From the IMG/VR virus record IMGVR_UViG_3300033153_005390, positions 1-21,206 of that record: DNA of 21,206 nucleotides; one strand, given 5' to 3'. The stretch is from a virus. Under the pieces are notes generated by a model. It searched no databases and was not told the origin of the DNA. It saw only the letters and a program-made list of their open reading frames with translations. A program made the translations under genes and the position numbers. Of this stretch, positions 2,875 through 18,821 are shown piece after piece. Positions within the stretch are counted from its first letter, which is position 1. Every line of letters begins with the position of its first letter.

Positions 2875-3375
2875 TTATCTATACCTTGGATTAAATCTAT
2901 TCATAAACATTGTATTTGTTTCCTTTAATGCATCGGCATATGCTCTAATTGTCGGTTCTAGACCCAATATTAATTTCATTATTCTATTTTCATATTCTGA
3001 TTGTGTAAAATTACTAGGTAAACCTGATAAAAGTCTAATCTTTCTTTTAAACTCATTCATATTTTTTATAAAATTTTGACCTTCCAATATTACATTATCT
3101 TCAGTAAAATCTTTAATTAACATACCTGTAACTCTAACACTCTCATCAATACCATCTGATAGTTTTGATAATATTTCTTCTCCACTAAACTTATCGAAAG
3201 TACCATTATCTACTTTTTCACCTAAAATTTTAATTACCTCCAATACGCCACTAAATACTTTAACTAACCCCTCCATTACCTCACCAGAATGTTTGGCCAT
3301 AATTATTTTATCATCATAACCACCAACTTCTTTAAGTAACTCTTCTTTTATGATTTTACTAATTGATTTCATCAT
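2875..3375 (-). CDS. Hypothetical helical protein in the prohead cluster
   Basis: A 166-residue protein I do not recognise. It is predicted mostly helical by eye: hydrophobic heptad-like stretches at about 30-58, then 'EEILSKLSDGIDESVRVTGMLIKDF', and a C-terminal half with 'FKRKIRLLSGLPSNFTQSEYENRIMKLILGLEPTIRAYADALKE'. The first 16 residues (MMKSISKIIKEELLKE) are a basic amphipathic start containing I-K-E and L-K-E, possible prohead-protease sites. This makes it a looser relative of the leader proteins next to it. The ATGATG start overlaps the stop of the preceding gene by 4 bases, so the two are translationally coupled. A core or internal head protein is a reasonable inference from position, since T4 has gp67 and gp68 around the protease. 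Nothing in the fold proves it. Confidence 0.65.
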   Translation of the reverse strand: MMKSISKIIKEELLKEVGGYDDKIIMAKHSGEVMEGLVKVFSGVLEVIKILGEKVDNGTFDKFSGEEILSKLSDGIDESVRVTGMLIKDFTEDNVILEGQNFIKNMNEFKRKIRLLSGLPSNFTQSEYENRIMKLILGLEPTIRAYADALKETNTMFMNRFNPRYR

Positions 3376-3779
3376 CTTTCGATGTCTTCAGGATTGATGT
3401 CGTATTCATCTGTCCCACCAACTTCTTTGTTAGCTCTATCCCCAATACTACCGAACTTTTTTCTTTGTTCACCAGATTCTTGTGAATCAACAGGTTCTCC
3501 TTTAATGTCCTTTAAACTTTCTTTAAATTTATTAAATAACTGTAAAGCTTTACCCGTGGCTTGATTACCAGATTGAGCAAAGAAATTTTTCAACATATCT
3601 ACAGCAGTACCAAATACTTCCCTCTCTTTTGGAGTAAGTCCCATTTTTTTTATATCTTTACCCGCTTGTTGTGTTGATTTACCAAGTTGTCCAGATGAAA
3701 CTTTATCTTCTTCTTTTATAATTCTATTAACCAACCTTTCAATGTCGTTTTCGTTAAGTTTTACAATTCTTTTTTTCAT
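3372..3779 (-). CDS. Leader-bearing small protein 3, candidate prohead core/internal protein
   Basis: A 135-residue protein of unknown function. Residues 1-24 (MKKRIVKLNENDIERLVNRI then IKEE) are nearly the same as the starts of the proteins at 4521-4880 and at codon 47 of 3785-4510, while the rest of each protein is unrelated. The remainder is polar and Gln/Gly/Ser-rich, with a short helical block at about 50-90 (TPKEREVFGTAVDMLKNFFAQSG...LQLFNKFKESLKD) and an acidic C-terminus. I21-K22-E23 fits the prohead-protease cutting rule. ATG at 3779 lies 5 bases after the preceding stop in an A-rich context. The pattern of one conserved leader on different bodies resembles the capsid-targeting sequences of T4 internal proteins; this is inference. 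Confidence 0.7.
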   Translation of the reverse strand: MKKRIVKLNENDIERLVNRIIKEEDKVSSGQLGKSTQQAGKDIKKMGLTPKEREVFGTAVDMLKNFFAQSGNQATGKALQLFNKFKESLKDIKGEPVDSQESGEQRKKFGSIGDRANKEVGGTDEYDINPEDIER

Positions 3780-3784
3780 TTTAA

Positions 3785-4510
3785 TTATTTATTTGCATGA
3801 TAAGCATCCAATTGTTCTTCACAGTTTTTCTTGCTGGAACACTTTCTCCAAACACCACCTTTTTTATTATTAAGGATAATCCAACCAGATTTTCGTTTTC
3901 TAACACAACCTTTCTTTGTATCAGCACAACCCTTACCTTCTGATTCAAGTAAAGACCTTCTAAATAATTTTCTATTTTCTTCCATATAATTTACGCAACC
4001 ATCTTCGGTCATATAACCACCATCACCACACTCATTAATATTCTCTTCAATATCTACATTTTGTTGTGGTATATAATCATATATTTTGTCTCCATATATT
4101 TTATATAATCTTTTCATTATGGCGGCAGGATTTTTTCTCATATATCTAATTACCGTTGGTGGTACATCGGCACCATATTTACCAAACATACTAGTAACAT
4201 CTCTTTCTCTTGGGTTGGAAACATATTCACCTCTGGTTCTAGCCCCACTCATCTCATAATCAGTCCTATCTTCACTAAGAGATTTTCTTTTTTGTAATTT
4301 TTCTTCCCTGATGATTTTTTTAACAAGTTTCTCTATTTCTTGTTCATTAAATTTAATTACTTTCTTTTTCATTTTATTAATTTTATGGTTTGTTTTATAT
4401 TCATTAATTGTTTTTCTTTTTTCAGCTAAAGCTGACATCCCCATACTTGAGGCCTTTTTAGATGCACTATCATAAGTTGATTTATCTAATTCTTGTAGTT
4501 TCTTTTTCAT
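3785..4510 (-). CDS. Leader-bearing small protein 2 with an extra N-terminal extension
   Basis: A 241-residue protein read from ATG 4510, which lies 8 bases past the preceding stop. The shared leader (MKKKVIKFNEQEIEKLVKKI then IREE) begins at codon 47 (ATG 4372). The first 46 codons are therefore an extension that itself begins MKKK and may be a fused small gene. Behind the leader come a disordered basic stretch, 'MFGKYGADVPPTVIRYMRKNPAAIMKRLYKIYGDKIYDYIPQ', a Cys-containing 'NECGDGGYMTEDGCVNYMEENRKLFRRSLLESEGKG' segment, and a compact C-terminal domain (KSGWIILNNKKGGVWRKCSS...EEQLDAYHANK). I have seen tails of this last type on other Bacteroidetes-phage proteins but know no function. Starting at 4372 would give 195 residues that align with the neighbouring leaders. 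The 4510 start is preferred because the stretch is open and the gap is small. Confidence 0.65.
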   Translation of the reverse strand: MKKKLQELDKSTYDSASKKASSMGMSALAEKRKTINEYKTNHKINKMKKKVIKFNEQEIEKLVKKIIREEKLQKRKSLSEDRTDYEMSGARTRGEYVSNPRERDVTSMFGKYGADVPPTVIRYMRKNPAAIMKRLYKIYGDKIYDYIPQQNVDIEENINECGDGGYMTEDGCVNYMEENRKLFRRSLLESEGKGCADTKKGCVRKRKSGWIILNNKKGGVWRKCSSKKNCEEQLDAYHANK

Positions 4511-4520
4511 TTTATTTGTT

Positions 4521-4880
4521 TTACAATTGACTTTTATACTCATCTTCGTCCAACATAATATCAACTAGTCTTGTCACACTACTATGTGCGCCATCTAAAG
4601 CACTAATATCGTAATCAAGTCTTCTAGTTAATGATACCATTTCTTCCGATGGTTGGTATCCGTCATTAATAGCCTCATCAATTATACGTTTTAATGTTTC
4701 ATCATAATAAGATGCCGCTGTAACATCACTAGAAGTGTATGTCAAACTATCATGTATGTCTGTTACTTCATCATCATAATCATAGTCAAAAATACTCTCA
4801 TTTAATTTTTCTTTCTTGATAATTTTCTTAACCAAGTTCTCTATATCGTTTTCGTTTAGTTTTATAATTTTCTTTTTCAT
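4521..4880 (-). CDS. Leader-bearing small protein 1, candidate prohead core/internal protein
   Basis: A 119-residue protein of unknown function, the first of three with the shared leader. Residues 1-24 are MKKKIIKLNENDIENLVKKI then IKKE. The body is acidic, with FDYDYDDEVTDIHDSLTYTSSDVTAASYYDE, then a helical stretch 'LKRIIDEAINDGYQPSEEMVSLTRRLDYDISALDGAHSSVTRLVDIMLDEDE'. L26-N27-E28 just behind the leader fits the prohead-protease rule. Its start codon overlaps the protease stop by one base (TAATG), so it is almost certainly co-translated with the protease. Size, acidity and position recall the small prohead core proteins gp67 and gp68 of T4, which also flank gene 21. No sequence match to them is claimed. 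Confidence 0.72.
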   Translation of the reverse strand: MKKKIIKLNENDIENLVKKIIKKEKLNESIFDYDYDDEVTDIHDSLTYTSSDVTAASYYDETLKRIIDEAINDGYQPSEEMVSLTRRLDYDISALDGAHSSVTRLVDIMLDEDEYKSQL

Positions 4881-5617
4881 TACAATAAAAAATTGTTTAA
4901 ATTATTTAATAGCTTTGATTCTTCTTCTGATAATAATTTATCGTCATTAACTTTTTTAACTGATTCCATATAAGGTACCAAATCTTGTTGATTTGTTGAT
5001 ATCCAAGAACCTGGTGTTGATGGTGATGTAACAATATCCCAACAAATTAATTCAAAATCATCTTGAACAACATTTTTTCCACCTTCTTGTTTTAATGAAC
5101 CTACACCTCTAGAGGAAATTCCAACAGTCCAACCTTTTCTAATCATATTAAGAACCTTATCTCCTACAGAACTAATAATGCCCATTTTATGATAACCTGG
5201 GGTTGTATCTAATTCCATTTTACCCATTAATGTATTACCTTCCCACCATATCTCTGTTATTGCGTGGGAAACTCTTTCACCATCAATAATTGATGATTCT
5301 GGATGATTAAGTTCACCAAGAGATGTACCCATATCAATAAATTCTTGATATCTATCGGCTTCTCTTCTTAATATTTCTTCTGTATATACTCTACCGTTTT
5401 TATTTTCTACACCCCATTTTTGAAGTACGGCATATAGTTCTATTTTATCTGGTAAAGGACCATCTGATGTTAAATTATTTTTAAATTCTCTTAATAAAGT
5501 CTCATTTATTATATCTCCATTTTTTTTACCTCTATGTGATATATTTGAATTAACATAACCCGCATCATATTCTATAATATAACCATAACCTTCTTCACCT
5601 GGTTTTAATATTTTCAT
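4880..5617 (-). CDS. 21: Prohead core protease, T4 gp21-like serine protease
   Basis: It cleaves scaffold, capsid protein and core proteins inside the prohead during T4-type head maturation. The family core runs from residue 63 to about 200: 'VLQKWGVENKNGRVYTEEILRREADRYQEFI', then GELNHPES with the likely catalytic His105, 'VSHAITEIWWEGNTLMGKMELDTTP', and WTVGISSRGVGSL with the likely catalytic Ser168 or Ser169. The next block, QDDFELICWDIVTSPSTPGS, is typical of the family. Residues 1-60 are an extension not seen in the core family. The 245-residue length is close to the 212 of T4 gp21 plus this extension. The gene opens the minus-strand unit left of the divergent region at 5618-5734, with the ATATTTAT motif 17 nt before its ATG. 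Confidence 0.9.
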   Translation of the reverse strand: MKILKPGEEGYGYIIEYDAGYVNSNISHRGKKNGDIINETLLREFKNNLTSDGPLPDKIELYAVLQKWGVENKNGRVYTEEILRREADRYQEFIDMGTSLGELNHPESSIIDGERVSHAITEIWWEGNTLMGKMELDTTPGYHKMGIISSVGDKVLNMIRKGWTVGISSRGVGSLKQEGGKNVVQDDFELICWDIVTSPSTPGSWISTNQQDLVPYMESVKKVNDDKLLSEEESKLLNNLNNFLL

Positions 5618-7345: not shown

Positions 7346-8446
7346 TTAAACTTCTACCGTTTCTAAAACAGTATTATACACAGTATCCAACATTGTGTAA
7401 CACACCAAATATGGGTCACAATTTGCACCTGGTCTTCTATCTTCAAAATAACCTTTACCATCTAATTTAGTTTTAATCGGTATTCTAACACTAGTATCTC
7501 TTGTGCTCCAACCCCAACTAAACTCATCTATACTAGCGGTCTCATGGTCACCCGTTAATCTTTCTTCATTTTTTTGTCCATAAACTTTTATGTGTTCCTC
7601 TTGCCTTGTAGATAATTTACCAATTATTTCTATAATTTTATCTAAACCACCTTTTTTTCTTGTTTCTTCTGTAGATACATTAACGTGACAACCGGCTCCA
7701 TTCCAGTCACCAGTCATGGGTTTTGGTGCTAAATTAACAATCATACCATGTATTTCTGATAATCGATGAAGTATATATCTAGATACCCATAATTGGTCTG
7801 AGCCTTCAAGTGGCGTTACTGGACCCAATTGATATTCCCATTGTCCTAACATAACTTCAGCATTAATGCCAGAAATATCTAAACCAATATCTGAACACAT
7901 TTTTAAATGTGATTCAACTAAGTTACGTCCAACAACATTATCAAAACCATTACCACAATAATAATCCCCTTGTTTTCTAGGTTCTTGTAACCCATTTTGG
8001 TTAAAATTAAATCCAAGTGGTAATCCAGGTTCATTTGTAAATGGTCTAAGTTTATAAGTTAATGTATACTCCTGTTCCCACCCAAACCAAGGCATTTTAT
8101 TAAATTTTTTATTATTTAAATTTAAATCTTCTAACATTGCGTATAATTTAAATCTACTATTAGTTTTATGTGGTGTGTTATCTGGACTATAAACTTCACA
8201 AAAAACTAATTTATGTTCTTTACCCCTAAATGGGTCGTCCTTTATAAAAACCGGTTTAAGTATACAATCTGTATTTTCACCTTTACCCGCTTTAGACTGT
8301 TTTGTTGAACTGCCATCAAATGACCATTCTGGTATAGGACCAGAAAACCCACCGTCATAATCTGATGACAAAACTTTTGTTTTACTTCTAATTTGTTGTG
8401 GTTGGTTTCCATCCAACCAAATATATTCTAAGAATATCTTTTTCAT
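7346..8446 (-). CDS. glnA: Glutamine synthetase, type II (eukaryotic-like GSII)
   Basis: It joins ammonia to glutamate using ATP to make glutamine. All 366 residues align with GSII. The beta-grasp domain has WSFDGSSTKQS (41-51) and DPFRG...LVFCEVY. The catalytic domain has WFGWEQEYTL (120-129, metal-binding Glu), GQWEYQLGP (201-209), DQLWVSRYILHR, NGAGCHVNVST (249-259, the His loop), RIP (321-323) and GYFEDRRPGANCDP (332-345). The expected active-site residues are present, so an active enzyme is likely. The length fits full GSII rather than the longer bacterial GSI or GSIII. GSII is known in Flavobacteriia, so capture from the host is the simple explanation. The gene has a terminator just upstream and no ATATTTAT motif, which points to its own regulation. 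Confidence 0.95.
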   Translation of the reverse strand: MKKIFLEYIWLDGNQPQQIRSKTKVLSSDYDGGFSGPIPEWSFDGSSTKQSKAGKGENTDCILKPVFIKDDPFRGKEHKLVFCEVYSPDNTPHKTNSRFKLYAMLEDLNLNNKKFNKMPWFGWEQEYTLTYKLRPFTNEPGLPLGFNFNQNGLQEPRKQGDYYCGNGFDNVVGRNLVESHLKMCSDIGLDISGINAEVMLGQWEYQLGPVTPLEGSDQLWVSRYILHRLSEIHGMIVNLAPKPMTGDWNGAGCHVNVSTEETRKKGGLDKIIEIIGKLSTRQEEHIKVYGQKNEERLTGDHETASIDEFSWGWSTRDTSVRIPIKTKLDGKGYFEDRRPGANCDPYLVCYTMLDTVYNTVLETVEV

Positions 8447-9494: not shown

Positions 9495-10289
9495 TTACTC
9501 ATTATTAAATTTATTTTTTAAATCGTATAATTCCAAAATCTTATCACTCATATTTTTTATATCCTCATCACTAGATGTTCTATAAATAACGTCTTTAGTT
9601 TCTAATAACTTTTCTTTTATTGTAACATTATTTTTATATTTATCTAAATTTTCGTTAACGATACTTATAGTGTCTTTAACTAATTTTGAAACCATTCTCT
9701 TTAAATCGTCTAATTTAGATTCTTTGAGTGTTTTCAATATGTCCTTTTCCTCTTCAGTTAGGTCTGAATATTTTTCATTAAATTTTTCTACAGCTATATT
9801 TAAGAATTTTTTAGGATTTATGTTTTCTTTAACGTACTCACTTTTTTCTTCTTCTATTTTACTACTTGTTAACCAATCTATAACATTTACTCTAGATTTA
9901 TGTAGTTTATTAACGGTATTGATACGATTAGTTGTAGTTGTTAAAACATGTAGTGATTCGTGTAGTTCTTTTGTGTCTTTATCCTTAAAATCAACATTAT
10001 TTTTTGTTAAAATTTTAGTTAATTTTTTTGTTTGTTCTATTATAGAATTTTTACCTCTAAAATTTTCTACTAAAGATAAATTTTCTTTTAAATATTGATT
10101 GGCCTCAAATTTATCCTTTATTGTATTACCTTCAATATTTTTATAAACAATAAAGGCCGTCTTTAAAGTTTCATTTTCTTTTACTGTTTGTAAAAACTTT
10201 TTATATAGGTTTTTTCCACTTTTTTCACCAGAAATATGGGATTCTACCAATCTCTCAATAAAAATATCTTTAATAGTACCAAAATTCAT
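9495..10289 (-). CDS. Helical hypothetical protein downstream of the portal
   Basis: A 264-residue, almost entirely helical, Lys/Glu-rich protein with no cysteines and no membrane segment. Its opening, 'TIKDIFIERLVESHISGEKSGKNLYKKFLQTVKENETLKTAFIVYKNIEGNT', followed by a middle section rich in KLTKILTKNN and a C-terminal coiled-coil-like half, recalls uncharacterised proteins that sit next to the portal gene in other T4-like uncultured phages. Position suggests a head-assembly or core role, since T4 carries gp67 and gp68 directly after gp20, but no similarity to them can be shown. It starts 49 bases past the portal stop, with the ATATTTAT motif 14 nt before its ATG. A 51-base gap follows it before the GAF-like gene. 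Confidence 0.68.
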   Translation of the reverse strand: MNFGTIKDIFIERLVESHISGEKSGKNLYKKFLQTVKENETLKTAFIVYKNIEGNTIKDKFEANQYLKENLSLVENFRGKNSIIEQTKKLTKILTKNNVDFKDKDTKELHESLHVLTTTTNRINTVNKLHKSRVNVIDWLTSSKIEEEKSEYVKENINPKKFLNIAVEKFNEKYSDLTEEEKDILKTLKESKLDDLKRMVSKLVKDTISIVNENLDKYKNNVTIKEKLLETKDVIYRTSSDEDIKNMSDKILELYDLKNKFNNE

Positions 10290-10338: not shown

Positions 10339-12234
10339 TTACTTATCTTCTCCATTTTTATTGTTATTTATAAGGTCATCTATACCTTCAGTCATCATAA
10401 AAATTTCTTCATTTTTTTTCTTACCCTCTAATAGTAGTTTATCTATTATTTTTTCATCACCCCTAAAGCTTTCACCAAACCCACCAGCTTCACCACCACC
10501 AGCTTCTTCACCGCCAAATTCTTCACCACCACCAAATCCACCAGCTTCACCACCAAATCCACCAGCTTCAAATCCACCAGCTTCACCACCAAATCCACCA
10601 GCTTCACCACCAGCATCGGTGCCAGCTTCTTCACCTTCGGCTCCTTGGTCCATAGGTAATTCACCATAAAGTTTATCCACTTTTTCAAAGAAACCCGTTT
10701 TCTTTATAATTTCTGGTGTCATCTCAAGTTCTTTTGATGCCGCTCTTTCAAGTCTCTGTTGTTCTAAATCAGACATAATTTCATCTTCAGACCAATTAAA
10801 TATATTTTTCTTAGCCCATGTATGTGACGAGGGTGATATGCCACCATCTACAGCTGAAACAAGGTCTTTATATAACATCACCTTTTCTTTCCATTGTTCA
10901 ATTTTTAACATCTCCCCCTGTGTTGATGGGTTTGTTAAACTTAACACAAAATCATTTAGTTCATCATGAAAACCTAAGACATATAAATGTATTATAGCTA
11001 TCTTATTTAATTCTTGTATTATAGACTGTTGTATTCTATTTATAGTTCTAGCGAATCTAATATCCATTAAGGCTAAATTTTTACCCTCACCAATTGGTTC
11101 TTCAAACCCCAAAAATGTTTTTGGAACTCTTAGGGCTGTAACTAATTTTCTTTGTATATATTGAATATCAGCTATTTGGTCCAAATTTTGTGCCCCTGGT
11201 AAAGTCTCGATTGGCATTGATGCTTGTGGGTCTCTAACTGGTACAAAATAGTCTTGGTCAACGGCTAATGTATTATATCTAATATCAGCTTGGCCAGTTT
11301 GTTGGTCTGTAGTTTGTGTTCTTTTAAATTTATTTGCAACTTTTTGTACATATGCCTCAACATCTTCATCATCAATATTACCAACATAAACTTTAAAAAC
11401 TCTTCTTTCTGGTGCTCTTGTGACACGATAAACTAACATAGCATCTTCAGCTAAAAGAAGTTGTTTCCATATTCTTCTAACTTTTTCTAATATTGCTGTA
11501 CCATATGGTAATTTTCTATCATCCCCCATTAAACGAAAATGTGCAATTTCCCATGCATTAAAAATTAAATTCTTATCCTTCCAAACAAATGTTACTTGTT
11601 TTTTACTTACATCATCCTCACTACCTGCCGCGTTATCACTGATAGTGTCTTGTCTTGAAAAGGGAAACATACCATTTTCTTTTCTCTCAATCTCTATGTT
11701 TGTAAGTTGTGAGGCTCCAACGACACCCTTTTTATTGTCTATTTTAAGGTAAACAAAATTATCACCATATTTACATGTATTTCTAACCCACATAGGTAGA
11801 TTAGTGTGTACATCTAATATATTATAAAATAAATCTTCAAGAACCTTTTTTATTCTAGATGAATCAGAATAAATCCCCATTATATTGTTTTGTTCATTTA
11901 ATGTACAACTCTCTTCTGCCATAATATCTAATGAAGCCGATATTTCCGGAGTAAATTCCATTGCCTCATAATCCATGTATGATGCTAATCTAGATGTTTC
12001 ATAGTATACAGATTTCTGGTATAATTCACTATCGACTTTAGTCCATTGTGATTCTAAATATTTTTGTTGTTGTAACTCTAATTTAGTTTTATTATAATCT
12101 TGTTTAGATTGTGTTACAATTAAATCATTATCTGTTAATTTAAATTTAGAATTTACAATATTTGTTTTAGGTCCTTGACCCTGCCCAAATAGATAAAATA
12201 ATTTTTGATATACTGTTAAATCTTTGTTTGCCAT
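10339..12234 (-). CDS. 20: Portal vertex protein, T4 gp20-like
   Basis: It forms the ring at one capsid vertex through which DNA is packaged and to which the tail attaches. The 631 residues include the T4-family blocks 'SLDIMAEESC' (about 101-110), RNTCKYGDNFVYLKID (151-166), 'LPYGTAILEKVRRIWKQLLLAEDAMLVYRVTRAPERRVFKVYVGN' (242-286) and 'LPGAQNLDQIADIQYIQRKLVTALRVPKTFLG' (about 343-374). The last of these lies in the crown/stem region. Length is slightly above the 524 of T4 gp20. The extra part is a C-terminal tail in which residues 541-587 are a Gly-Gly-Glu-Ala-Gly-Gly-Phe repeat, followed by a charged end. The ATATTTAT motif lies only 5 nt before the ATG at 12234. The start is fixed by the MANKDLT opening and the absence of an upstream in-frame alternative. 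Confidence 0.93.
   Translation of the reverse strand: MANKDLTVYQKLFYLFGQGQGPKTNIVNSKFKLTDNDLIVTQSKQDYNKTKLELQQQKYLESQWTKVDSELYQKSVYYETSRLASYMDYEAMEFTPEISASLDIMAEESCTLNEQNNIMGIYSDSSRIKKVLEDLFYNILDVHTNLPMWVRNTCKYGDNFVYLKIDNKKGVVGASQLTNIEIERKENGMFPFSRQDTISDNAAGSEDDVSKKQVTFVWKDKNLIFNAWEIAHFRLMGDDRKLPYGTAILEKVRRIWKQLLLAEDAMLVYRVTRAPERRVFKVYVGNIDDEDVEAYVQKVANKFKRTQTTDQQTGQADIRYNTLAVDQDYFVPVRDPQASMPIETLPGAQNLDQIADIQYIQRKLVTALRVPKTFLGFEEPIGEGKNLALMDIRFARTINRIQQSIIQELNKIAIIHLYVLGFHDELNDFVLSLTNPSTQGEMLKIEQWKEKVMLYKDLVSAVDGGISPSSHTWAKKNIFNWSEDEIMSDLEQQRLERAASKELEMTPEIIKKTGFFEKVDKLYGELPMDQGAEGEEAGTDAGGEAGGFGGEAGGFEAGGFGGEAGGFGGGEEFGGEEAGGGEAGGFGESFRGDEKIIDKLLLEGKKKNEEIFMMTEGIDDLINNNKNGEDK
10474..10614 (-). 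repeat. Tandem AGGFGGE-type repeat in the portal C-terminal tail
   Basis: On the plus strand, caccaccaaatccaccagct units of 9 to 21 bases recur across this interval. They encode residues 541-587 of the portal, made of GGEAGGF, EAGGFGG and GGGEE blocks. Such a tail is probably disordered and could change length by slippage. Open frames on other strands and phases here are by-products of the repeat. Confidence 0.82.
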
Positions 12235-12565: not shown

Positions 12566-14350
12566 TTATTTACCTTTAAATCCAAATAAACCATTAAAAA
12601 GCCACAGATGTTCCTTTGTATTTTGAAGGGTTTGTGTATTTTCTACCTTATCTACAATAAAGCCATTAATAACTTCATCAAGTTCACTAATATCTTCACT
12701 ATTTGTCGTAGTAATAGACCAACTATCAATCATTGCTTTAGCTTGACCTTTAGATTTTTCTAAATCTTTAAAAGATGTCATCCCAACAAAACAACACATA
12801 CCTATAGACATTAAAAGGTCATCATGGTAACCTTTCATATGGTCGGGTCTACCATTAATATGTGAAAAAGTGTCCATTTCATTAATAGCTCTAATTGACC
12901 TAACTTTAAAGGTATCCATTCTAATAGATTTTTCCATCTCAGATACTATTGTATTTCTATTTTTTTGAAAATTAATTCCTGGTAATTTACCTTTATTCAT
13001 ATGTTTTTGTAAAGTTCTATTATTTTCTAATACATCTATACCTACAGTGACATCATAATACATTGATTTTTTAGAGTACCCCAATTCAATTAATTTAAGA
13101 ACTGTAGAGGCTCCCCAACCACCCGTAATGTCAACAACTATGAAAGCATTATACGATTCTCCATAATATTTACATATTTCACCTAAAATATCTGGGGCGG
13201 TCTTTCCTTTATATTCCGCAACCTGATATCCAGTAGTATAATCCCAAATACAAATGCCAGCAAAATCATCAGAAGAACCACTAGAAGGGTCTGCAGCTAA
13301 TATATATTGATGGTCTTTAGTTGGGTCTTCCCAAATCCACATATTACCATCCATCCACTCTTTTCTAATTGGGTCTTTAACATTATCCTTTTTTTGTCTT
13401 TCTACATATTTTTCAACAATAACATTATCACCTGAACCTAAAAAACTACATAAAAGTTCTTGGGAAATACTACGTGGGTTATGATTAAGTTGTGCACACA
13501 TATTTTCAAACCATTCTGAAGTGGGCTCCCAACCATCTTTAACTAAATCATTCCACTTACTTTTATCAAATTCCTCTTTTGTTTCTATAGTTTCTTCACC
13601 ATCTTTATTTCTTTCTTTTTTAACCCACGTCATACCATTATTATATCTAGGGTCTTCATACCATTTCATTTCAGTTATATAAAAATTATTATCACCAGAT
13701 TTAGCATTTGCATAAGCTTTATGATAAAGAGGGTCATAACCATTAGGGGTTGAAATTAAGATTGAACGTCCCCCAGTGGAGAGTGATGGTTGTGCCGCGG
13801 TATAAAATTCTTCACCCTTATTACCCTCAATAAATGCTGCCTCATCAACAACAATAACCGATGGTGTGTACCCCCTTAAAGCATCTTTTGAAGAAGCAAC
13901 CGCCTTAACTTCACTATTATTCCATAATTTATAATGTGAACTTGAATTTTTTTCACTATCAAACCATTCATCTGAATTTGGATTTCTGTAAACATCCATC
14001 CAACTAGGTAATTGTTTTGTAAAATCTTTAATTTTTTTAAGAAATTCTTTTGCTGTTTCTTGTTTATTAGCCGCTATCAATATTTTTTGTGTACTTTTAT
14101 TTGACGCTAAAGTAGTTACAATCGCTAAATAAGCCGCGGTTGTTGTAGTTATTCCTGCTTGTCTAGGTTTCATAACTATATTATGCTGATTATTAACATA
14201 AGCTATAATTAATTCTTTTTGTCTTGGGAATAATTTAAATGGTACAATACCATTTTGTGTTCTATCTTCTGTTTCAAGATAGGTTTCTATAGCATAAATT
14301 GGGTCCTTTATACATTTCCCAATTTCATATAACATTTGAGCCTTATTCAT
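12566..14350 (-). CDS. 17: Large terminase subunit, T4 gp17-like DNA-packaging motor
   Basis: ATP-driven motor and headful nuclease that fills the prohead through the portal. The 594 residues carry both domains. In the ATPase, PRQAGITTT (62-70) is the variant Walker A, VIVVDEAAF (165-173, D169 and catalytic E170) the Walker B, and ILISTPNG (197-204) the coupling motif. The RNase-H-like nuclease has the acidic residues AADPSSG (D354), VVDITGG (D407) and HDDLLMS (D510/D511), matching the three-acid site of T4 gp17. Length is close to the 610 of gp17. It begins right after a terminator, with only 30 bases in between, so it must have its own promoter. No small-terminase gene is seen directly upstream, where T4 has gene 16. 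Confidence 0.95.
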   Translation of the reverse strand: MNKAQMLYEIGKCIKDPIYAIETYLETEDRTQNGIVPFKLFPRQKELIIAYVNNQHNIVMKPRQAGITTTTAAYLAIVTTLASNKSTQKILIAANKQETAKEFLKKIKDFTKQLPSWMDVYRNPNSDEWFDSEKNSSSHYKLWNNSEVKAVASSKDALRGYTPSVIVVDEAAFIEGNKGEEFYTAAQPSLSTGGRSILISTPNGYDPLYHKAYANAKSGDNNFYITEMKWYEDPRYNNGMTWVKKERNKDGEETIETKEEFDKSKWNDLVKDGWEPTSEWFENMCAQLNHNPRSISQELLCSFLGSGDNVIVEKYVERQKKDNVKDPIRKEWMDGNMWIWEDPTKDHQYILAADPSSGSSDDFAGICIWDYTTGYQVAEYKGKTAPDILGEICKYYGESYNAFIVVDITGGWGASTVLKLIELGYSKKSMYYDVTVGIDVLENNRTLQKHMNKGKLPGINFQKNRNTIVSEMEKSIRMDTFKVRSIRAINEMDTFSHINGRPDHMKGYHDDLLMSIGMCCFVGMTSFKDLEKSKGQAKAMIDSWSITTTNSEDISELDEVINGFIVDKVENTQTLQNTKEHLWLFNGLFGFKGK

Positions 14351-16369: not shown

Positions 16370-16788
16370 TATATTTTTACTTTATTCTCATTATATTTTA
16401 ATGCCAAATCCATTATATATAATTTGGATTCTACCAATTCTTTTTTCTCACCAAATTTAAACACAATTCTTTCAATTTCTGGGTCATCTTCTTCTTCATT
16501 CAATTTTTGCCAACCCAAAGCAATAATATCCTCAACTGCATTATAAATATCAAACACACCTGATTCTTGTACCAAATCCAAATCTAATTCATTTGTTTTA
16601 AGTGAACCTATCACTTTAACAACTGATGGGTCTGGTGATAAATCTGTTGTATCTGTTATAACAGAAGATTCATACCAACCTTCATCCCATTCCCATTTTA
16701 TTGAATTTGAAAATAAAAATTCGAACATATGTTCACCTTTAAATGTGGTGCCTATTTTATTTATGTATATTAAATATAAATCTTTCAT
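16369..16788 (-). CDS. Conserved phage hypothetical, structural region
   Basis: A 139-residue protein of mixed alpha/beta type. It begins with strands (LYLIYINKIGTTFKGEHMFEFLFS) and continues with 'WEWDEGWYESSVITDTTDLSPDPSVVKVIGSLKTNELDLDLVQESGVFDIYNAVEDIIALGWQKL' and 'RIVFKFGEKKELVESKLYIMDLAL'. The pattern 'YINKIG...GE-x-x-FEF-x-FS' and 'VFDIYNAVEDIIALGW' is familiar to me from unassigned proteins in other T4-like phages, so I regard it as conserved. The function is unknown. It overlaps the gene before it by 4 bases and the gene after it by 1, so it belongs firmly to the surface/structural operon. The ATATTTAT motif 23 nt upstream lies inside the end of the repeat-protein gene. Confidence 0.72.
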   Translation of the reverse strand: MKDLYLIYINKIGTTFKGEHMFEFLFSNSIKWEWDEGWYESSVITDTTDLSPDPSVVKVIGSLKTNELDLDLVQESGVFDIYNAVEDIIALGWQKLNEEEDDPEIERIVFKFGEKKELVESKLYIMDLALKYNENKVKI

Positions 16789-18821
16789 AAAGTAATTATT
16801 TTATAGGTTATATAAATATCTAATGAACTATCACCATTAATACCTGGGTTAGTAGATGCAATTAGTACTACACTATCATTAGGTGACCATGAATTTTGAT
16901 AAGCAGCCTCTTGAGTAAAGGTCCCATATGTATCAGTATTATATGCGGAACCCATTAACCCACTAGTGTGGCCCCACCGACACAACTCTGGGGCTGGTGG
17001 TGGAAACCCACCAGCTGAACACGAAGTTCCTGAATATTTTAAAATGAGCTCTACACCATTATTGTAAGGTGTTGTACCATAAATCTTTCTAGCGTTAGCT
17101 GCTATAATTTGTATGGCTTTTCCTACTCCAGGTGCAGGAATCATCTCAACAGTAACCGAAGTAGCAGTTAATACTGAAATTTGTGCAGGAACTAAACTTT
17201 TTTTAATAAATAAGGTTTGACAAGACGCAGAATAAGGTACTCCACCAACATTAAGTGATGGTGTATTAATGCCTGTTGGAGTTATTGTTGTTGCACTAGT
17301 ACCACCAGATATAGTAATCTTAGGTGTTATTATTTGTGGTCCAATGTATACTGGAGAACAACCTGATATAGAAGATGTATATAATGTACCACCAAACTCA
17401 CATAAATCTAAATTTGGTACATAAACTGTGTCATTTGTTGTCCCACTAATATGTGACCCACCCAACACAACACTTCTTAGTATATTATCTGATATTGTAT
17501 TTCCAGACCCAGCAAATATTCCAGAACTTGTACTACCACCACCAATATTATGGTCTGTGCCACCAAGAATTGCTGAATAATTACCATAAGCACCAATGGT
17601 TCCTGAAGCACTTGTTTGTCTAAAATGAACAAATGATGTTTCACCACTTGCAATAATTTTATTACTTACAGCATCCAATCCTCTACCACCAGAATGTGAA
17701 TTGGCACCACTTGCGATTGTTAGATGACCTTCAGCATGAGAATGGCTACCACTTGCGGAATCGCCTTCAGCGTGAGAATTAAGACCACTTGCCATTGCAA
17801 AACTACCTTCAGCGTGTGAATAAGTTCCACTGGCAGTTGTACCTTCACCTTCAGCGTGTGAATAATCACCACTTGCGGTTGTAAAGTCACATTCTGCATG
17901 AGAATGAATACCAATTGCTTTTGTATAATATCCTTCAGCGTGAGAACCTGCACCACTTGCGATTGTATTTTCTCCTTCAGCATGTGAAGCGAGACCACTA
18001 GCTAATGTACCTATACCTTCAGCGTGTGATGAAAATGTGGTTGCTGATGTCGCATCATTATATGGTATAGGCTGCGGAAAAGACGATAGACCACCTTCGG
18101 TGTGAGATGCTATACCAGTAGAAATATTCCCATATCCTTCAGCATGTGAATACCTACCACTAGCTAATGTATCACCACCTTCAGTATGAGAATGGCTACC
18201 ACTTGCGGTGGTTCTATTACCTTCAGCGTGAGAACCACTACCTTTCGCAGTTGTATCTATACCTTCTGCGTGAGAACCTAATTTACTTGATATTGTTCTC
18301 ACACCTTCTGCGTGTGATGCTACACCGCTTGATAATGTTCCATATCCTTGTGCATGAGATGAGTGTGTTGTCGCAGATGTTGGTGTTATTAATCCCTCCC
18401 CATTCACACCGCCAAAAGTAGAAGAATAAATAGCACCTGTAATGTTATTACTACCTTGTTTAAAATTTCCTTCTACAATCATTTCCCCAATAGTAACTGG
18501 TGAACACCCCGATATCGTAGATACCCATAACTCACTTATACATGTGGCTTCTGTATTTCCTGTAAATGTACTTGATGTGGTAATGCCACTAATTGATATT
18601 ATTACATCGTCATTTCTATATAAATTTATTGTTGAAGCACTTGAAACATAAATTCCACTTTCTACATATGTGTCACCACTAACACCAACAATAAAATTAG
18701 ATAATGTATTTAAAGATACTTTTTCTGTTTTATTATTAATAACATCCCATATTGGTATTAAATCTGTATCTTTTAATGCGTTACTGTTTATCGGTAGTTG
18801 GTCTATTCTTTTATTTGCCAT
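16785..18821 (-). CDS. YadA-head-like SHAEG repeat fiber or adhesin
   Basis: A 678-residue surface protein, probably a trimeric fiber that touches the host. Residues 1-45 (ANKRIDQLPINSNALKDTDLIPIWDVINNKTEKV) are an opening often seen on Bacteroidetes-phage virion proteins, likely a docking segment. Residues 155-379 contain about 16 copies of a 14-residue repeat, S-H-A-E-G-x-x-T-x-A-S-G-x-x. This is the Hep_Hag/YadA-head type left-handed beta-roll known from bacterial trimeric autotransporters. Two copies of an ISGCSPV-x-IG block (about 103-113, and again after the repeats) frame the roll. The C-terminal 130 residues, without repeats, are strand-rich (SLVPAQISVLTATSVTVEMIPAPG...) and may be the tip domain. 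The start overlaps the stop of the LamG-like gene by one base. Confidence 0.82.
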   Translation of the reverse strand: MANKRIDQLPINSNALKDTDLIPIWDVINNKTEKVSLNTLSNFIVGVSGDTYVESGIYVSSASTINLYRNDDVIISISGITTSSTFTGNTEATCISELWVSTISGCSPVTIGEMIVEGNFKQGSNNITGAIYSSTFGGVNGEGLITPTSATTHSSHAQGYGTLSSGVASHAEGVRTISSKLGSHAEGIDTTAKGSGSHAEGNRTTASGSHSHTEGGDTLASGRYSHAEGYGNISTGIASHTEGGLSSFPQPIPYNDATSATTFSSHAEGIGTLASGLASHAEGENTIASGAGSHAEGYYTKAIGIHSHAECDFTTASGDYSHAEGEGTTASGTYSHAEGSFAMASGLNSHAEGDSASGSHSHAEGHLTIASGANSHSGGRGLDAVSNKIIASGETSFVHFRQTSASGTIGAYGNYSAILGGTDHNIGGGSTSSGIFAGSGNTISDNILRSVVLGGSHISGTTNDTVYVPNLDLCEFGGTLYTSSISGCSPVYIGPQIITPKITISGGTSATTITPTGINTPSLNVGGVPYSASCQTLFIKKSLVPAQISVLTATSVTVEMIPAPGVGKAIQIIAANARKIYGTTPYNNGVELILKYSGTSCSAGGFPPPAPELCRWGHTSGLMGSAYNTDTYGTFTQEAAYQNSWSPNDSVVLIASTNPGINGDSSLDIYITYKIITL
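16812..16819 (-). promoter_or_regulatory. ATATTTAT motif 23 nt upstream of the 139-aa gene
   Basis: The minus strand reads TTAGATATTTATATAA. It lies within the last codons of the SHAEG-repeat gene, so it would be an internal promoter of the operon. Confidence 0.4.
17685..18359 (-). repeat. About 16 tandem 42-bp units encoding the SHAEG repeats
   Basis: The units recur every 42 bases with the plus-strand core ccttcagcgtgtgaa and its variants. The register is broken by one longer insert around 18020-18090 (SSFPQPIPYNDATSATTFS) and one shortened unit near 17745. One copy reads SHAEC and the last reads SHSGG. The regular coding phase shows this is a protein repeat and not a CRISPR array. Confidence 0.9.

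Follow-up and report, generated by a model that had tools for sequence, protein, structure and literature searches.

Analysis of a 21-kb virus fragment from IMG/VR uncovered a short N-terminal leader that is common to many otherwise unrelated proteins of large T4-like phages. We consider it probable that this leader is a cleavable capsid-targeting propeptide, analogous to the capsid-targeting sequences (CTSs) of the T4 internal proteins and not detectably homologous to them. The fragment (here, the window) is one strand of IMGVR_UViG_3300033153_005390, positions 1 to 21,206. The putative cut position and cutting protease are inferred by comparison of sequences, and packaging is likewise an inference; no virion proteomics, isolate or virion mass spectrometry was found for leader-bearing phages, and no cleavage assay. 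The earlier note on this DNA had proposed a cargo-loading tag, and the comparative evidence favours that proposal in the form of a cleavable, swappable head-targeting propeptide, with head entry, cleavage and delivery all inferred.

Leader-bearing genes within a T4-type head module

A T4-type head module occupies the minus strand of the window, on which all window features described here are encoded. It includes the terminase (12566-14350), the portal (10339-12234; Portal_T4, E 2.7e-72), a Peptidase_S77 prohead protease of the T4 gp21 family (4880-5617; Pfam PF03420, E 4.8e-26; PHROG head maturation protease, E 1e-41), which is the presumed cutter, and a gp23-type major capsid protein (MCP) that is incomplete at the window edge (1-1087) and has a predicted propeptide cut at LLSE60↓TTAAAGG (base 908). 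An acidic 419-aa ORF (1120-2379) between the capsid protein and the cargo genes has no convincing family match in Pfam or PHROG and is probably the scaffold, a role inferred from position and composition. Four genes of interest lie between the protease and this probable scaffold, in the arrangement that the earlier note had described; three carry a long leader and the fourth (166 aa) a short one.

The three ORFs with the long leader start MKKKIIKLNENDIENLVKKIIKKE (4521-4880), MKKKVIKFNEQEIEKLVKKIIREE (3785-4372), and MKKRIVKLNENDIERLVNRIIKEE (3372-3779). As had been claimed from the sequence alone, they have 23-24 near-identical N-terminal residues in common and unrelated bodies; one consensus is matched by all three leaders (E 4e-9 to 5e-8), and a scan of the 21-kb record with it gave no leader match beyond these three places. 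The site numbering given previously (I21-K-E, I21-R-E, and L26-N-E in the 135-, 195-, and 119-aa proteins) is also correct. The ATG of the 119-aa gene (4521-4880) overlaps the protease stop codon (TAATG). Its leader (4797-4880) has lost the canonical I-x-E site (I-K-K; IIKKE), and the next predicted cut follows L26-N27-E28; the L015 orthologue keeps a canonical I-K-E leader. The 135-aa gene (3372-3779), whose orthologue in L005/L016 has 114 aa, carries a leader (3711-3779) that ends I21-K-E23.

The 195-aa gene (3785-4372) lies in frame inside a 259-aa ORF. Its leader (4304-4372) ends I21-R-E23, and the linker that follows (4271-4303) contains a second predicted cut site, L32-S-E34↓DRTD; throughout this family (I/L)-(S/N)-E stands ahead of a conserved DRTD, with INE↓DRTD or LSE↓(A)DRTD in the orthologues. 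The protein has a conserved core (REKDI..FGKY..RYMRKNP), and members of the family have no match among isolates. Its AlphaFold model is globally poor (pTM 0.35), with the leader modelled as an extended start and a helix at 10-37 (pLDDT ~90). A leaderless stretch, MKKKLQELDKSTYDSASKKA... (4373-4510), is inferred to be the remnant of a domain that in L005/L016 follows a single leader and is joined to the 195-aa domain in a 381-aa protein.

The 166-aa protein (2875-3375) belongs to a family that we refer to as GYDD and is predicted to be a helical bundle (model pLDDT 80). Its short leader (3328-3375) ends L14-K-E16↓VGGYDD. What had been described as a looser version of the long leader on this neighbour is actually a different, shorter leader, MMKSISKIIKEELLKE. 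GYDD proteins have no match among isolates. An assignment of function from the fold was rejected: the model matches only generic helical bundles, none below E 0.001, so the fold names no function.

Conservation of the leader ends at a single motif

A first set was collected from relatives of the window protease (80 loci), in which a regular expression that used only the first part of the leader, and not its end, recovered 50 distinct leader proteins. The final E is present in 47 of these 50 and I, L, M, or V stands two residues earlier in 49, while the residue between them varies (K, R, N, A, S, T). In the aligned block, where the hydrophobic residue is position 14 and E is position 16, information drops from 3.9 bits at E to ~1 bit three residues on. 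A profile scan of IMG/VR enlarged the set to 224 distinct leader proteins, with up to 17 leader genes per large contig. Conservation ends abruptly after [ILVM]-x-E in 219 of 224 leaders (192 of 224 for the strict [IL]-x-E). The caution that L-x-E hits might arise by chance is not upheld, the motif being found at the junction in 98% of cases vs. 1.5% per position in the bodies.

The main leader is 22-26 residues long, and its placement is N-terminal (284 of 291 leader matches begin no more than 40 aa from an upstream stop). A 210-kb relative (G001) has eight convincing copies, none of them more than 12 kb from the protease; in others, leader genes form scattered clusters distant from the head genes. 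A rumen/gut leader, MxKxLIRLTESDLHRIVKESVxRILxE↓, is three residues longer with the same ending; it was found without using its end, and has the terminal E in 112 and [LIM] in 119 of 122 cases, with no conservation afterwards. No model of the leader was apparent in Pfam, PHROGs, or NCBIfam, where 2 of the 136 tagged proteins was the most that any family matched, and the string LTESDL was absent from 5.39 million open papers.

Unrelated leaders are exchanged at the same junction

Judged from sequence comparison, leader swapping in the GYDD family is the strongest evidence for a putative cleavable propeptide. The shared core of this family begins (V/A/I)xGYDD, and what precedes it varies among the orthologues: the short or the long leader, one of two others, or an interior stretch of a larger protein. 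The leaders, which are not homologous, are MNIRKIIKEELLKE↓, MKKKVIRLTESDLEKLVKKIITE↓, MGKKYQITEEQFSNLMRNLTE↓, and MGKKIIISESQLERLAKLIAE↓, and the internal junctions read SRIDE↓, QLDE↓, SRINE↓, TINE↓, and YINE↓. An (I/L)-x-E stands at the junction in 28 of 28 orthologues, no more than two residues from the core start. L012 and L028 each encode a fusion that opens with the long leader and has an internal IDE or LDE ahead of the GYD core, as if the product were a polyprotein.

Ten of 11 copies of a further non-homologous leader of ~45 aa, KHLLNN..IREQH.GG..KLGDVKPLVNE↓Q, share this type of ending (VNE↓Q or similar). Four bodies that follow the long leader in one phage follow the ~45-aa leader in another, and the part of these bodies that aligns starts 3-8 residues past the junction (phmmer E 2e-8 to 1e-29). 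Because unrelated leaders converge on one terminal motif where the body begins, we interpret the motif as a putative processing site; neither a mere helix nor a homologous N-terminus would predict such convergence.

Homologues without a leader have the motif near the expected start in 48 of 76 cases, vs. 20% in control stretches. This test was pooled and is not clean, since most misses come from one tandem paralogue family, in which leader and site are both missing from most members and the only member with a leader ends IIKK.

Further N-terminal sequences were seen on several contigs. The ~45-aa module (KHLLNNxSEEEKNxIREQHTGGMKV...KLGDVKPLVNEQ) is found on unrelated bodies in L101, L112, L116, L122, L124, L134, L148, L162, and L163. 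A third start, MKIIITESQYKLLxE, is common on many different proteins (L091, L101, L104, L114, L132, L134, L136, L139, and others); only 24 of 57 copies have its terminal E, and it is therefore not counted here as the same signal. In L091, L121, L131, and L159 there are large tandem arrays of paralogous ~100-aa proteins (~27 frames) that begin MKYLITESQLDKVIFKYLDNQDF.

Association with the prohead protease and the capsid protein

Predicted MCP propeptides end [ILV]-x-E in 70 of 70 intact N-termini (INE 33, LTE 9, LNE 8, IYE 7, and others), which matches the rule for T4 gp21, a cut after L/I-x-E (PMC9026906). The residue after the predicted cut is A, T, or S in all 70 MCPs vs. Q, E, S, D, or N in most leaders, and this difference counts against the propeptide reading. 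It would suit a rival reading in which the leader docks onto a phage structure (scaffold, portal, tail, or shell) and stays on the protein, its last E being a helix residue with no cut site, and the leader segment is indeed predicted as a helix. A hydrophobic residue at P3 could follow from an amphipathic helix alone, but the nearly invariant E would be left unexplained. Nor does a retained tag account for the coincidence of I/L-x-E ends in non-homologous leaders, internal fusion junctions, and MCP propeptides, or for orthologues that retain the junction and not the leader, and we regard it as unlikely.

The propeptide reading is further supported by the company that the leader keeps. S77 scores above the Pfam cut-off in 24 of 24 large leader-bearing contigs tested and gp23 is present in 23 of 24, against a background in which only 2,225 of 50,697 phage records match this protease. 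Among 17 rumen contigs, gp23 is intact in 11, and each of these also has S77; the other six are probably incomplete, because five have no gp23 match and one has a gp23 fragment only. No significant leader was seen in two relatives, of 353 and 363 kb, that do carry S77; such S77 relatives without a leader, together with the misfit tandem paralogue family, the frequent distance of leader genes from head genes, and the lack of a profile match between the leader and T4 internal or head proteins, count against a propeptide. That distance from the head module, and bodies such as thioredoxin or esterase that could act in the cell, would be expected if the leader were a signal to another compartment or process (replication compartment, membrane, or host protein) found only by coincidence in T4-like phages. 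This seems to us more unlikely still, given S77 in every one of the 24 large contigs, a leader end that equals the cut motif of the capsid protein, and a leader sequence that is short and charged, without a secretion-signal-like hydrophobic core.

Two rumen contigs have a prohead protease frame that an intein-like insert splits exactly at the conserved HP(E/S) motif (L283, 1429-3255; L281, 676-1869). The insert in L283 is ~375 aa with homing-endonuclease-like motifs, and that in L281 is ~165 aa.

Diversity of the bodies and of the leader DNA

The 224 leader proteins fall into 136 body clusters, 109 of them single. Pfam searches with 136 representatives matched thioredoxin (1e-21), PG_binding_1, UPF0227 esterase, LysM, annexin repeat, and weaker families, while most leader-bearing bodies fall in no known family (Pfam, PHROGs, NCBIfam). 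A leader found mainly on early cytoplasmic proteins, the outcome named earlier as refuting head targeting, is not what these body families indicate, although most bodies have no known function. That most are short and without a known family leaves some room for a single domesticated gene family, with bodies diverged beyond recognition and the leader as the conserved N-terminus of homologues; the thioredoxin, LysM, PG_binding_1, and UPF0227 folds are mutually unrelated, however, and the same body is found with different leaders, which makes common descent very improbable.

At the DNA level the window leaders are only 68-81% identical, and each pair differs at 5-7 codons synonymously. It is therefore the protein sequence that is shared, rather than a recent DNA duplication, and selection acts on the leader peptide; an origin from a shared DNA element was rejected on the basis of these synonymous differences. 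An element that acts in the DNA or RNA, as a recombination hot spot or in translation initiation, and is only incidentally translated is hardly credible, for although repeated recombination could give unrelated genes the same N-terminal position, the protein is kept despite the synonymous changes and its conservation spans the freshwater-type and rumen sets.

Distribution and hosts

The leader is almost absent from 84,980 cellular genomes, with only two relatives, both of the gut variant on metagenome-assembled contigs. When the leader was searched as a short peptide by tblastn, none of 50,697 phage records matched, and because this search is insensitive, whole genomes of the nearest isolates were scanned. 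No convincing leader was found in Flavobacterium phage immuto, Rhodothermus phage RM378, or Microcystis phage Mel-JY01, nor in two uncultured huge phages; the match in LR756508 reached only E 0.008. No isolate checked carries the leader.

The nearest isolate is a Flavobacterium phage (42% identical protease). From this isolate, the literature on bS21 phages, and one Bacteroidales metagenome-assembled contig, we infer that the hosts of the large T4-like leader phages are mostly Bacteroidota. Two leader-bearing contigs (G002 and G003) carry bS21. In the available passages on bS21-encoding Bacteroidetes phages, these are large and from freshwater, like the leader phages, and identity of their clades with the leader contigs is not established; RNA reads suggest that their prohead protease and a downstream hypothetical gene are co-transcribed at a late stage, and those passages do not mention the leader (PMC9723584).

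Proposed mechanism and relation to known systems

We propose that the N-terminal segment, MKK-[IV]-[IV]-[KR]-L-[TN]-E-x-D-[LI]-x-x-[LI]-V-x-x-[IV]-I-x-E, for which a brief extended start and an amphipathic helix are predicted, would bind a component of the prohead core, and that the cargo would thereby be enclosed in the prohead; both steps are inferred. The S77 prohead protease would then cut after the terminal (I/L)-x-E, as predicted for the major capsid protein, a step that has strong comparative support and has not been shown biochemically. By analogy with T4 internal proteins, mature cargo may stay with the DNA and be ejected into the host. The tag is modular: more than 130 unrelated bodies carry it, other leaders with the same end can take its place, and some cargoes are fusions that contain additional internal cut sites. 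We lean, if only modestly, towards the broader view that large T4-like phages of Bacteroidota have a general, modular virion cargo system with several interchangeable N-terminal tags, each ending in the cut motif of the head protease, and about ten or more unrelated proteins per phage, some of them polyproteins cut in the prohead.

Like the leader, the T4 CTS (IPI, IPII, IPIII, Alt) is N-terminal and common to otherwise different proteins, and it ends L/I-x-E in a phage with a gp21-type S77 protease, both of which are true of the leader phages (PMC9026906). In T4 IPIII, an aspartyl in place of the P1 Glu prevents processing, while targeting still takes place (PMC9026906). Its length of 10-19 residues (PMC9026906) is not met by the main leader (22-26), while the 16-residue leader of the 166-aa protein would fit. 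The leader profile showed no detectable similarity to T4 IPI-III, gp22, gp23, or gp24 (best E 0.09, not at the N-terminus). We do not file the leader as a member of the T4 CTS, because length and sequence homology do not agree, and its removal and sufficiency are unproven. It also differs from the T4 CTS in that more than 130 body clusters bear it, with as many as 17 genes on one contig, and in having several exchangeable leader types and fused cargoes with internal sites, targeting being inferred. Short N-terminal propeptides (20 and 24 residues) are also cut from gp45 and gp225, head proteins of the giant phage SPN3US, by its prohead protease (PMC10052503); that phage belongs to a different group with a different protease, whereas the leader is common to many unrelated proteins and lacks mass-spectrometric proof.

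The principle is already known, since a review of T4 suggests that CTSs let T4-like phages package varied proteins (PMC9026906). The extent, modularity, and phage group of the leader system are new relative to the searchable literature. To our knowledge, proteins injected with phage DNA are known for very few phages. If the propeptide reading is true, a single short profile turns hundreds of unnamed proteins from uncultured giant phages into predicted injected effectors that are ready to test against host defences; the leader would also give the T4 CTS idea a second case, independent of the first and much wider, and would offer a ready-made tag to load proteins into phage heads. Should the modular cargo system also hold, the delivered repertoire of uncultured giant phages could be read from sequence.

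Other features of the head region

Four further features were recorded in the window. A glutamine synthetase gene (7346-8446; Gln-synt_C E 4e-18, Gln-synt_N E 2e-9) lies inside the phage head region. A 264-aa protein (9495-10289) that adjoins the portal has no match among isolates; its start, MNFGTxKDIFxEKLIES, is kept in ~50 distinct relatives, and with an L-x-E-like end near residue 16 it is a candidate core protein. The portal protein itself has a long tail (10339-10800) of Gly/Glu/Ala-rich repeats (GGEAGGFGGEAGG...). Finally, a 678-aa protein (16785-18821) has SHAEG repeats that resemble the YadA head (E 4e-4, which misses the Pfam cut-off) and is probably a fibre.
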